Shown here: positions 32,417-41,533 of the stretch, piece by piece
Position numbering within the stretch: position 1 is the stretch's first letter
How the letters are laid out: every line of letters begins with the position of its first letter
Assembly (NCBI RefSeq): GCF_021032705.1
Contig: NZ_JAHVXI010000007.1
Location: 126,141 to 190,140, forward strand
DNA from: Psychroserpens luteolus
GTDB taxonomy: Bacteria > Bacteroidota > Bacteroidia > Flavobacteriales > Flavobacteriaceae
Reading direction: 5' to 3'
DNA: 64,000 bases
Program-made: the position numbers and the translations under genes
Notes under the pieces: generated by a model
Told to the model about the DNA's origin: nothing
Database searches by the model: none
The model's input: the letters and a program-made list of their open reading frames with translations, nothing else

Positions 32417-32477
32417 TTTTTATTTGCTGAAAAATGAAGTTCAATTAAATGAGATTTCCGTTTTGCGGAAAATGAAT

Positions 32478-33302
32478 ATGAAACAATACCACGACTTAGT
32501 AAAACACGTTTTAAACGAAGGAAACGAAAAAAGTGATCGTACAGGAACAGGAACAAAAAGTGTTTTTGGTTACCAAATGCGATTTGATTTAAGTGAAGGG
32601 TTTCCTATGGTAACCACAAAAAAATTACATTTAAAATCGATTATTTATGAATTGCTATGGTTCTTAAAAGGCGATACAAATATTAACTACCTTACAGAAA
32701 ATGGAGTTCGCATCTGGAATGACTGGGCCGATGAGAATGGCGACTTAGGACCTGTCTATGGTCATCAATGGCGTAATTGGAATAATGATGAAATCGATCA
32801 AATAAAGGATGTAATTCACAGTTTGAAACACAATCCAGACAGTCGCCGAATGATTGTCTCTGCTTGGAATCCTTCAGTATTACCAGATACATCAAAATCT
32901 TTTAGTGAAAATGTTGCCAATGGTAAAGCTGCTTTACCACCATGTCATGCCTTTTTTCAGTTCTATGTTGCTAATGGTAAATTGTCTTGTCAACTCTACC
33001 AACGTAGTGCAGATATCTTTTTAGGTGTTCCATTCAATATTGCATCGTATGCTTTATTTACGATGATGATGGCACAGGTATGTGGTTATGAAGCTGGTGA
33101 ATTTATTCACACCTTTGGAGATGCTCACATTTACAGCAATCATTATGAACAATTAGAATTACAATTATCCAGAGACATTAGACCATTGCCTAAAATGACA
33201 TTGAATCCTGAGCTCAAAGATATCTTCGATTTTAAATTTGAAGACTTTACGTTGGAAGACTACAATCCGCACCCACATATCAAAGGCGTTGTTGCTGTTT
33301 AA
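32478..33302 (+). CDS. thyA: Thymidylate synthase
   Basis: A 274-residue enzyme that methylates dUMP to dTMP using methylene-tetrahydrofolate. The catalytic Cys156 sits in [12 protein letters not shown], with [19 protein letters not shown], the early [13 protein letters not shown] and the C-terminal [10 protein letters not shown] region. Length matches ThyA. The longer frame (from 32385) begins inside a terminator, so I start at MKQYHDLV (32478; ATG at 32472 is a possible alternative). It regenerates dihydrofolate, which the DHFR domain encoded 2 kb downstream would recycle. Confidence 0.95.
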
Positions 33303-34529: not shown

Positions 34530-35459
34530 ATGTTCGGAAAAAAGAAACCCATTCCTCAAATAGATAAAGAACAATTAGCATTAATTAAATATGCCGAAAA
34601 ACGTATTAGGCAAAAAAAGCGTGTTTATTTTCATTTTGTGGTCTTTTTAATAGGTGCCGTTTTTTTAATTATAGCAAATACGGTTTTAGGTATTGGTAAA
34701 GATTTCACCATAGCTGGACTCAACTGGTTTGTGATTGCTATTGTTATATGGCTGTCCTTATTTGTTTACCATTTTGTAACAGTATTCATTACACATAGTT
34801 TTATGGGTAAAGATTGGGAAGACCAGCAGAGAGACGCTCTTGTAGCCAAGCAACAACAACGTATTGAAAAACTCAAACAGAAATTTTTAAAAGAAGAGAC
34901 AGAAATTGCAAAATCACAGGCTTATAATGAAGCCCTAGAAAACAAAGGTACTGAGCAAAAAAAAAAATCTGAATTAACTATTATAGTAGCTGCAGGAGAG
35001 AATAATGCCATAGGTAAAGACAACGATTTGATATGGCATTTAAGTGACGATCTTAAGCGTTTCAAATCATTGACCAACGGCCATCACATCATTATGGGAA
35101 GAAAAACCTTTGAGAGTTTCCCAAAGCCACTTCCTAATCGTACTCATATTGTTATTACGCGACAAGATAATTACAAAGTCCCAGATGGTGTTATAGTAGT
35201 TAATAATATGAGTGACGCTCTTGATGCTGCCAGAAACGATAAACAACCATTTATTATTGGTGGAGGAGAAATTTATAAACAATCGATGGCTCTAGCAGAT
35301 AAGATTGAAATTACTCGGGTACATCATAGTTTTGAAAATGCGGATACTTTTTTTCCAGAAATAGACACTTCTATTTGGAAAGAGACACATAGCAAGTTTC
35401 ATAAAAAAGATGAGAAACACCAATACGCATTTACGTTTTTAACATATACAAAATCCTAA
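34530..35459 (+). CDS. folA: 2TM-domain protein fused to dihydrofolate reductase
   Basis: A 309-residue fusion. The N-terminal part (about 1-110) is a 2TM domain: a basic start, helices at about 31-53 and 65-90, then FMGKDWEDQQ. A charged helical linker (about 95-145) leads to a complete DHFR (about 148-309): LTIIVAAGENNAIGKDNDLI, WHLSDDLKRFK with the catalytic acid, IIMGRKTFESFP, FIIGGGEIYKQ and RVHHSFENADTFFPE. It should reduce dihydrofolate to tetrahydrofolate while tethered to the inner membrane with DHFR in the cytoplasm. The junction is encoded by an 11-A run (34957-34967); both other frames meet a stop within five codons after it. No ATG suitable for a free DHFR lies nearby. The stop overlaps the convergent LytS gene. 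Confidence 0.87.
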   Translation: MFGKKKPIPQIDKEQLALIKYAEKRIRQKKRVYFHFVVFLIGAVFLIIANTVLGIGKDFTIAGLNWFVIAIVIWLSLFVYHFVTVFITHSFMGKDWEDQQRDALVAKQQQRIEKLKQKFLKEETEIAKSQAYNEALENKGTEQKKKSELTIIVAAGENNAIGKDNDLIWHLSDDLKRFKSLTNGHHIIMGRKTFESFPKPLPNRTHIVITRQDNYKVPDGVIVVNNMSDALDAARNDKQPFIIGGGEIYKQSMALADKIEITRVHHSFENADTFFPEIDTSIWKETHSKFHKKDEKHQYAFTFLTYTKS

Positions 35460-38704: not shown

Positions 38705-41533
38705 ATGAAACAACTGCTACTCCTTTTATTTACGTTCAGTATGACGTTATGTTTTTCTCAAAAAAAAAGCATAAAACAAAACTGGGACGCTTTCGAAAAA
38801 AAATATGGTAAAACCATTGTACAATGGAAAGATAAATCTGAATCTCCTCATAGAGTCATTTGCCAACCCATAAAACTATCAGAGCATATTTATGATGCAC
38901 AACAACTGGAAGCTCTGTTAAGAGAGTTTATAAGTTCTAATCAATCTATATTTAATATTGAAGACAAAAACTACAGACGCGTTAAAATCCAAAAAGCAAA
39001 ACATTTATGGTATGCCCATTTTGCTCAAACCTATGAAGGTAAGGTTGTTTTAAATTCAGAATTGATATTTAGAGTACACACCAATGGTAACTTAGTATTG
39101 TTTGGAATGGAAGTCTATGACATTCCGGCTATTGAAAGTAATAATCAGTCAACTTCTACTATAGAACAATCCATTGTTAATACTTATCCCAATGAAAAGA
39201 TAAAAATTGAATTTCTTGGAGGCTTAAAAATACTACCTATTCGCGAAGGAAACACTATTACATTTAAATCTGCATATGAACTCTTTATCACTAATTTGAA
39301 TGATATTTCAGAAGTACTATACGTAGACGCTAACACGACTGAAATTCTAGAAAAGCATTCAAAAATACATAATCATAGTTATGATATACAAGGGAGTGTA
39401 GACGGTCAAATACTTCCTATAACTCCTACAGATTTACCACAATCTATAGGGTTTCCAAATCTTCATGTCACTATTGGAGGAACGCAAATTAGTACCGATG
39501 AAAATGGTAATTTTGATCATACAATTGCTGGAAGTTCAGCAATACTAAATGCAGAATTAAAGGGTGATTTTGTTTCAGTAAGCAACTTCGGTTCTCCCGA
39601 TGCTTCAATAACACAAACTGTGGGGCAAAATGACGTTCTAAATATTGTTTGGAATAATACCAACTCTACATTAGAAGAGCGAAACGTGTATTATCATATC
39701 AATAGAATTCATCAAAACAACAAACAAGTAGATCCTGGTTTCAATGCTCTAGATTACCCCTTGCAATGTATTGTAAATGATACAAATGCAAATGCATTGT
39801 GTAATGCCTTTTGGAATGGTGTCAACTTACATTTTGGTATTCAAGCGAGTAACTGCTCCATAAATTCGGCGCATAGTCCTTCTACCATTTATCATGAATA
39901 TGGTCATGCTACAAATGATAGAATGTACAATCAAGCTGGTGTTTCTGGAGGTATGAAAAACCCAATTTTGCAAGAAGCATTTGCAGATATTTACTCTACA
40001 TTATTTTTAAATGACAGTCGATTAGCACTTGGTTGGTTTGGATCAGGAACATTTACCAGAAACCTTAATAATAGTAATAGATATCCAGCAAATATTGTTG
40101 GTCAACAACATACTGATGGTTTGATTCTTGGAGGTGCTTTTTGGGATTTGGGTTTATTAACTTCGCCGCAAACTGCTTATGAACTAGCTCATTATGCCAA
40201 ATATGGAACTCCTGATGATTCTGATATTGCAGTGGCATATGCCGAAGTATATTTTGAAACTTTGGTTGCCGATGACGACGATGGTAACTTAATGAATGGC
40301 ACACCTAATGGGATGGCCATCGAAAATGCTTTTTGTCAACATGGCATTGGCTTTAATCTTTTTGCGTCACAGAAAATTTCACATTTAGCTCATGAAAACA
40401 CATTAAACACCTCAGACGATTACAGAATAGAAATTAGCTTAGATCCCACTCCATTTACGAGTCAATTAAATATATCATTAACATACTCTACTAATGGTTT
40501 TAACTCAACTAATACAGTGTCATTTTCTCAAGTTAACGACACAACTTTTGAAGCCTTTATTCCTAGCCAATCAGCTGGTACATTAGTAAATTATTATTTT
40601 TCTATACCAAATGTTAGTTGTGCATTTAATATACTTTTTCATCCATCTAACGACTTTTTAACCGAAAATTATTCATTTTATGTTGGTAATTACTTAGCAG
40701 ATTTCGAGGATGATTTTGAATTTAATCAAGGATGGCAAATTGGTTCGTCTTCAGATAATGCAACATCTGGGTTGTGGCAAAGGGGAACTCCTCAGCAAAC
40801 AATAGATGGTGCTGGTTTTATTGTACAACCCGGATCTGATCATTCGCCTAGTGGCTCAACTTGTTTAGTTACTGGTGCAACACAAGGTGTTTTTTGGTAC
40901 TCAAATGATGTTGATACAGGAAAAACAACTATCACTTCTCCGGTGTTTAATAACCTAGATGACACTTCCATTATCCAGTTCTACAAATGGTTTATTCATG
41001 GCGCAGGATTTGTGTTTCCAGTGCAAGGTGAATGGGCTATGGAAATTTCTAATAATGGTACAAATTGGGTGACAGTTGAAAGCACCAACTATGGTGATCA
41101 TCGTTATTGGATAAATACGAAACACAAAATAAGCGATTATGTTTCAGTGACAAACACTATTCAAGTGCGGTTTGTTGTTTCCGATTTTGGATCGGGTTCT
41201 ATTGTTGAAGCTCTAGTTGACGATTTTCAAATTTTGACTTTATCAGCTTTAAGTATTGATGAAATCGATGAAAATTTAGATGTGAGCATTCATCCTAATC
41301 CAGCAAAGGATGTGGTTAACTTTCAATTTCAACCTTCAATGACCTCAATAATCAATATTGAAATATTTGATGTTTTAGGACGAAAAGTTGAAGACATAAA
41401 AGCCAATCCAAACAATTCTAATCACACTATTACATGGAACATAGCGCCTAACTTCTCATCGGGCATCTACTTTGCCAAGATTAATACAACACTTGCAAAT
41501 AAGAAAGCAACTAAAAAAATTATTATAAAATAA
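38705..41533 (+). CDS. Secreted M36-like (fungalysin) metallopeptidase with T9SS sorting domain
   Basis: A 942-residue exported protease. The signal peptide ends at about residue 18 (LCFSQ). A propeptide region with FTP-like text follows (about 40-210: LREFISSNQSIFNIEDKNYR, WYAHFAQTYEGKVVLNSEL). The catalytic zinc motif is HEYGH (397-401) with the downstream EAFADIYS glutamate, typical of M36. After the catalytic domain there are beta-sandwich modules (about 560-850). The C-terminal T9SS type A sorting domain (about 865-942) has SIHPNPAKDVVNFQF, IFDVLGRKV and SSGIYFAKI. It should be exported by Sec, moved across the outer membrane by type IX secretion, and degrade external protein. Confidence 0.9.
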   Translation: MKQLLLLLFTFSMTLCFSQKKSIKQNWDAFEKKYGKTIVQWKDKSESPHRVICQPIKLSEHIYDAQQLEALLREFISSNQSIFNIEDKNYRRVKIQKAKHLWYAHFAQTYEGKVVLNSELIFRVHTNGNLVLFGMEVYDIPAIESNNQSTSTIEQSIVNTYPNEKIKIEFLGGLKILPIREGNTITFKSAYELFITNLNDISEVLYVDANTTEILEKHSKIHNHSYDIQGSVDGQILPITPTDLPQSIGFPNLHVTIGGTQISTDENGNFDHTIAGSSAILNAELKGDFVSVSNFGSPDASITQTVGQNDVLNIVWNNTNSTLEERNVYYHINRIHQNNKQVDPGFNALDYPLQCIVNDTNANALCNAFWNGVNLHFGIQASNCSINSAHSPSTIYHEYGHATNDRMYNQAGVSGGMKNPILQEAFADIYSTLFLNDSRLALGWFGSGTFTRNLNNSNRYPANIVGQQHTDGLILGGAFWDLGLLTSPQTAYELAHYAKYGTPDDSDIAVAYAEVYFETLVADDDDGNLMNGTPNGMAIENAFCQHGIGFNLFASQKISHLAHENTLNTSDDYRIEISLDPTPFTSQLNISLTYSTNGFNSTNTVSFSQVNDTTFEAFIPSQSAGTLVNYYFSIPNVSCAFNILFHPSNDFLTENYSFYVGNYLADFEDDFEFNQGWQIGSSSDNATSGLWQRGTPQQTIDGAGFIVQPGSDHSPSGSTCLVTGATQGVFWYSNDVDTGKTTITSPVFNNLDDTSIIQFYKWFIHGAGFVFPVQGEWAMEISNNGTNWVTVESTNYGDHRYWINTKHKISDYVSVTNTIQVRFVVSDFGSGSIVEALVDDFQILTLSALSIDEIDENLDVSIHPNPAKDVVNFQFQPSMTSIINIEIFDVLGRKVEDIKANPNNSNHTITWNIAPNFSSGIYFAKINTTLANKKATKKIIIK

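Follow-up and report, generated by a model that had tools for sequence, protein, structure and literature searches.

The 64-kb window, i.e. the whole stretch of 64,000 nucleotides of Psychroserpens luteolus DNA that was analysed, contains a gene in which a membrane domain and a metabolic enzyme are encoded together. As proposed in the initial annotation, a complete dihydrofolate reductase (DHFR) follows a 2TM domain and a charged linker in one frame, and both the open reading frame and the Pfam matches bear this out. The features of the locus are listed below, with positions given in the window.

34530..35459, + strand: fused 2TM-DHFR open reading frame, 309 amino acids, ATG start (translation and Pfam matches)
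34587..34841, + strand: 2TM domain (PF13239), residues 20-104 (Pfam, 63.1 bits vs. a cut-off of 24.8)
34842..34973, + strand: charged linker, residues 105-148 (modelled by AlphaFold2 as helical up to about residue 136)
34957..34967, + strand: A11 run, proposed slippage site (CAA AAA AAA AAA TCT) (sequence; A9-A12 in 23/23 genomes of the genus)
34970..34972, + strand: TGA stop reached in the frame with one extra A (sequence)
34975..34977, + strand: TAA stop reached in the frame with one A fewer, at a distance that bears no sign of selection (sequence; synonymous resampling)
34974..35456, + strand: DHFR domain (PF00186 match, residues 149-308) (Pfam DHFR_1)
32475..33302, + strand: thymidylate synthase gene, upstream, given for context only (gene-neighbourhood annotation)

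The DHFR_1 profile match (208 bits vs. a cut-off of 25) extends over positions 2-159 of 159, that is the whole domain, and the nearest solved relatives of the predicted domain are dihydrofolate reductases. The upstream part belongs to the 2TM family by a profile match above the cut-off and by two helices of transmembrane length, residues 13-51 and 66-86, in the AlphaFold2 model. In this model (mean pLDDT 74.7, pTM 0.53), the DHFR fold is confident. Linker residues 129-134 and 136-145 have pLDDT values under 50 and are perhaps flexible; the second of these stretches coincides in part with residues 143-146, whose codons contain the A run.

In the whole Psychroserpens genome, the window fusion is the one DHFR_1 match over the Pfam cut-off; the idea of an accessory DHFR was therefore rejected, and the enzyme is probably essential. 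A second, sub-threshold match (22.6 bits vs. the cut-off of 25) is located at G000:C11:244776-245081 (L002). Further 2TM-like stretches, all weak matches, stand in a row at G000:C43:136927-137495, and similar rows are found in other genomes of the genus. Upstream of the fusion are genes for a nucleoside transporter and for thymidylate synthase, the metabolic partner of DHFR, together with two smaller genes. Downstream, on the opposite strand, are two histidine kinases and a LytTR regulator. Synthesis of a free DHFR from an internal ATG was also considered and rejected for the window gene. Indeed, in agreement with the initial annotation, no in-frame methionine occurs from about 40 codons before to 4 codons after the DHFR start, and the first one inside the DHFR is residue 189.

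The count of 11 consecutive A at the junction was found to be exact. One extra A in the run leads to ATC TGA and one A fewer to AAT CTG AAT TAA, so that both stops lie where they had been predicted and the gene has nearby stops in its two non-zero frames. By length, the run is not beyond chance, since dinucleotide shuffles of the window contain on average 2.03 A11 runs, with at least one in 76 of 100 shuffles. It is the sole run of at least ten A or T in the window, and six distinct places with at least 11 A were found in the 3.84 Mb genome. The small number of long A or T runs in the window and in the genome points to an avoidance of such runs, which has been reported for AT-rich bacteria (PMC1088944). 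Judged by sequence comparison, the aspect of the window run that goes beyond chance is its conservation in relatives, not its length. The only other run of at least nine A in the window (38760-38768) closely follows a likely signal peptide; the open frame that holds it has an ATG at 38705. Among the genome's runs of at least 11 A, the longest is an A17 at G000:C55:22296-22312 (L375); the longest open frame across it has 73 codons.

Gene arrangement in relatives was studied in two sets. The Flavobacteriaceae family draw comprises 145 analysed loci (149 genomes searched, 146 matched, the weak match G128 being left out). The second set, of 253 loci, is made up of this draw, 21 further genomes of the genus Psychroserpens, six genomes from one genus, 21 extra top hits among the matches listed, after removal of nine duplicates, and 60 likely-split genomes. 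The latter are 60 of 62 further listed genomes, picked because a short open frame looked split. Counts on the 253 loci, including those on the 138 split genomes, are thus partly hand-picked and do not describe a random sample; the family draw is less biased. In the family draw, 67 loci are fused, 56 have a separate DHFR gene directly preceded by a 2TM gene, and at 22 no adjacent 2TM gene was seen. In the larger set, 90 of the 253 loci are fused, window included. All 23 Psychroserpens genomes searched carry the fusion, which, together with the 67 fused loci of the family draw, marks it as old. On a quick tree of 228 rows, at least nine changes occur between fused and split, and at least 34 between presence and absence of the run. 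Considering the 22 loci without adjacent 2TM gene and the 61 of 138 split genomes without run, neither the run nor the fusion is universal. In an order-wide draw of 246 genomes, the best matches among those listed from outside the family start at residue 118 or later and thus span DHFR without reaching into the 2TM half.

Homopolymers are error-prone, and the initial annotation had warned that a sequencing error fusing two genes must be excluded. An error of sequencing or assembly is already refuted, and its probability is negligible: the fusion is found in every genome of the genus and in nearly half of the family draw (67/145), many of these fused loci having no long run at all. The further suggestion that the fusion and its run should be sought in relatives was borne out in the genus, where all genomes are fused with A9-A12, and for the fusion itself in the family. 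It did not extend to the run in general, as 48 of the 90 fused loci have no run of at least nine A.

The genus Psychroserpens retains the run as A9-A12 in its 23 genomes while flanking codons change. A stop in the +1 frame within four codons is found in 23/23 genomes, vs. 9.3 from synonymous resampling; these 23/23 counts are weakened by the closeness of the genomes (median identity to the nearest, 0.88). A stop in the -1 frame within the same distance occurs in 14/23, vs. 14.8 expected. Hence, the proposal that both stops are suited to the release of a 2TM-only protein is supported for the +1 stop, whose conservation fits such a release, and not supported for the -1 stop, which bears no mark of selection; of the nearby stops in both non-zero frames that slippage of the dnaX type would need, the genus keeps only the +1 stop beyond chance. 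In other fused genera that have the run, the +1 stop is present within four codons in 13/19 cases, vs. 7.7 expected. The run seems to be maintained in Psychroserpens and to drift in the other fused genera.

The initial annotation held that relatives with separate 2TM and DHFR genes, each with its own start, would refute its proposal. Such relatives do exist (56/145 loci), yet the idea is not refuted by them, because 29 of these 56 loci carry an A9 or A10 run at which slippage would join the two proteins (A9 in 27, A10 in 2). In split relatives the run would thus serve the opposite purpose, joining rather than releasing. Among the 138 split genomes of the larger set, 77 have at least nine A in the end of the 2TM gene (A9 in 71, A10 in 6). 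In all 77, the DHFR is in the -1 frame, and this frame is open from the run to the DHFR over 5 to 72 bases; the same geometry is found in 29/29 run-bearing loci of the family draw. One added A, or a -1 ribosomal slip, would therefore fuse the 2TM and DHFR proteins. The product of the shifted frame, open in 77/77, is homologous to the single-frame fusions of relatives, known at 90 of the 253 loci. Programmed transcriptional slippage is expected to have a homopolymer of roughly nine A or T, or longer, at a conserved place, and such a run is present in 23/23 genomes of the genus and in 77/138 split genomes. In the 61 split genomes without the run, the DHFR frame offsets are 2, 0, and 1 in 36, 13, and 12 genomes, respectively; the 36 with offset 2 likewise have the DHFR in the -1 frame, and 28 of the 61 would allow a -1 fusion.

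Two main forms of the run exist in split tails. It is found either over KKK just before the 2TM stop, or about 22 bases further upstream over VKKK, VKKN, LKKN, SKKN and others. Its phase is 0, 1, and 2 in 44, 3, and 30 genomes, respectively, and the encoded residues differ. The base after the run in the 77 split loci is G in 55 and C in 22, and never T, though the genomes are mostly AT-rich; a G or C at this place may matter for slippage. In L262 and L266, the A9 is shifted upstream by 36 bases relative to four other members of the same genus, again with exactly nine A, and L267, the seventh genome of this genus, has A8 in place of nine. L329 has an insert-like stretch between the A9 run and the DHFR start; even so, the DHFR frame stays open from the run onwards.

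A change of state can be seen within one genus, g152. L304 is fused into one frame, its junction having A7, and L306 is split with A9, the two being 95% identical over their 2TM and DHFR parts. From this sequence comparison, a change in the run is what separates the fused form from the split one. Such a pair could also be expected from a DNA-level contingency tract, that is from phase variation, in which run length would vary between cells and switch the locus between fused and split. This is highly improbable, given that the length is nine in 71 of the 77 run-bearing split genomes and that the single DHFR copy over the cut-off here is probably essential.

Run length itself carries the marks of selection. 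Under a synonymous-codon null, which conditions on the lysines being present, runs of at least nine A are expected in 32.2 of the split tails and observed in 77, and runs of exactly nine are expected in 24.8 and observed in 71. The corresponding values are 23/23 observed vs. 13.3 expected for Psychroserpens, and 19/66 vs. 12.2 for the other fused genera, where 66 of the 67 non-genus fused tails could be scored. Outside the tail, control coding regions of the same genomes (168 kb, 456 segments) show the reverse, with 15 runs of at least nine A vs. 98.2 expected. A smaller control set, restricted to segments whose added upstream codons contain no stop, gave 9 vs. 52.9. Lengths in split tails peak at nine (A7 27, A8 12, A9 71, A10 6, none longer), and those outside the tail are A7 126, A8 73, A9 13, A10 1 and one A11. 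In addition, runs in frame 2 are closed by a Lys codon that is AAG in 13 cases vs. AAA in one, AAA making up 466 of 611 Lys codons elsewhere in those genomes. This choice of AAG means that the run is capped at nine. Because the genomes are related, none of these counts represents independent events. Nearest relatives keep a run of at least nine A in 69/77 split genomes and 23/23 genomes of the genus, when turnover of Lys codons (three AAA codons) predicts about 0.53 and 0.57. An independent-pair test on the tree yielded 10 pairs on supported branches, with a median p of 0.25 and a direction that was never contrary; informative pairs were too few.

These data bear on the possibility that the run has no function and merely reflects a Lys-rich tail in AT-rich genomes or, in fused genomes, a leftover of the fusion's origin. 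AAA is the common Lys codon, and the null alone already accounts for 32.2 of 138 split tails. Moreover, nearest relatives in the other fused genera keep the run in 5/19 cases, below the 0.57 given by codon turnover; together with its absence from 48 of the 90 fused loci, this indicates that the run is dispensable once the genes are fused. However, the excess over the synonymous null, the cap at nine, a retention above Lys codon turnover and the fact that the same genes avoid such runs outside the tail make the absence of function very improbable.

The run could also be an A-rich signal for initiation or coupling of translation at the DHFR start, unrelated to slippage. In 68 of the 77 run-bearing split genomes, a DHFR start codon lies within four bases of the 2TM stop, overlapping or touching it, and in 34 of the 44 cases in frame 0 the distance from the end of the run to this start is five bases; an initiation signal would suit these 34. 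Bacteroidota are described as lacking Shine-Dalgarno sequences (PMC6847099). A survey of frameshift clusters has a column for a second-frame start near the first stop and a label TC, which we take as translational coupling and under which such gene pairs might fall (PMC3711429). However, the run ends at least 27 bases before the start in 28/30 frame-2 and 3/3 frame-1 cases. Over the 15 bases that precede the start, split genomes lacking the run have almost the same A share as those with it (0.51 vs. 0.55). The genus retains the run although the window gene offers no ATG for a separate DHFR, and such a signal does not predict an open -1 frame in 77/77. On this sequence evidence, an initiation signal is disfavoured and has a low probability.

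We consider it fairly probable that the A run is a conserved programmed slippage site of Flavobacteriaceae at the junction between membrane anchor and DHFR, which would let one locus give tethered and untethered products. The slipping agent would probably be RNA polymerase, which we infer rather than the ribosome. In split relatives, normal reading would end in the 2TM gene and DHFR would be started afresh at the start codon by the 2TM stop, whereas addition of an A by RNA polymerase at A9 would join the frames and give a membrane-tethered DHFR. In Psychroserpens, the frames are already joined and normal reading would give the tethered DHFR; an extra A at A9-A12 would lead to the early stop and to a 2TM-only protein. 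The addition of one A by RNA polymerase thus accounts for both the split and the fused forms, the slippage itself and the membrane location of the fusion being predicted. In vivo, nine A or T slip efficiently with bacterial RNA polymerase (PMC5009743), and in three cassettes from one gene cluster, with 11, 9 and 7 A, frameshifting was reported at 63%, 40% and 10%, respectively (PMC3711429).

The same conserved recoding could be carried out by the ribosome if tRNA-Lys slipped by -1 on an A AAA AAA inside the run. This heptamer is found in any frame of an A9 run, and shifts in the -1 direction only (77/77) are a sign of ribosomal frameshifting by the criterion of one survey (PMC3711429), although the overlap of start and stop would impose a single direction anyway. 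Stimulators are not apparent: in a simple test restricted to pseudoknot-free structures, mean structure z-scores are +0.31 downstream and -0.54 upstream vs. +0.02 in the control, and an SD-like core is present upstream in 3/77 vs. 1/77 in the control. Furthermore, seven A suffice for the frame-2 heptamer, yet the runs of at least nine in that frame are 29 of nine and one of ten, and split tails with A7 or A8 are few (27 and 12 runs, at any position). Slippage by the ribosome is an unlikely alternative to that of RNA polymerase, though the main one.

A DHFR within a fusion is also known from the bifunctional DHFR-thymidylate synthase of protists, in the same pathway. In the present case, however, the partner is a membrane domain and thymidylate synthase is a separate gene nearby. 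A close parallel to Psychroserpens is dnaX of Thermus thermophilus, where a single frame encodes the long product and a run of nine, at which RNA polymerase can add bases, leads with nearby stops in the other frames to a short one, about half of the product being full-length (PMC5009743). The two genes are unrelated, however. The short product predicted here is a membrane anchor devoid of the enzyme, and in related genera the same run would act in the opposite sense, to join two genes. In this respect split loci resemble the transposases of IS elements with conserved 9A overlaps, in which two overlapping frames are joined by A9 slippage (PMC1088944), as predicted here. In contrast to these mobile elements, the Flavobacteriaceae locus is chromosomal; its enzyme is probably essential and has a start codon of its own at the overlap. 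The -1 ribosomal frameshifting of Escherichia coli dnaX likewise uses an A-rich slippery site and the -1 frame (PMC5009743), but neither an SD-like stimulator nor a downstream structure was found at the 77 split loci.

A survey of 2005 for conserved 9A outside mobile elements retained one candidate, mapW, dnaX and mxiE being known from elsewhere (PMC1088944); a later one predicts many more frameshift clusters, 146 in number (PMC3711429). The main text of the latter contains none of the terms "dihydrofolate," "folA," and "Flavobact". A literature search in non-subscription journals, with some matches judged by their title or the start of their abstract, retrieved no paper on the 2TM-DHFR gene pair.

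More broadly, we give even chances to a model in which Flavobacteriaceae would set the share of membrane-tethered DHFR, a housekeeping enzyme, by slippage of RNA polymerase at a run whose length is tuned to nine A. It would work both ways, joining split genes and freeing the anchor from fused ones, and changes in the run would move lineages between gene forms. For annotation, the split and fused forms may then be one system. If the model is true, RNA polymerase (or the ribosome) of Flavobacteriaceae slips productively at A9, and recoding enters core metabolism, with a family-wide case in a folate enzyme. It would also raise the question of why DHFR is tethered to the membrane.
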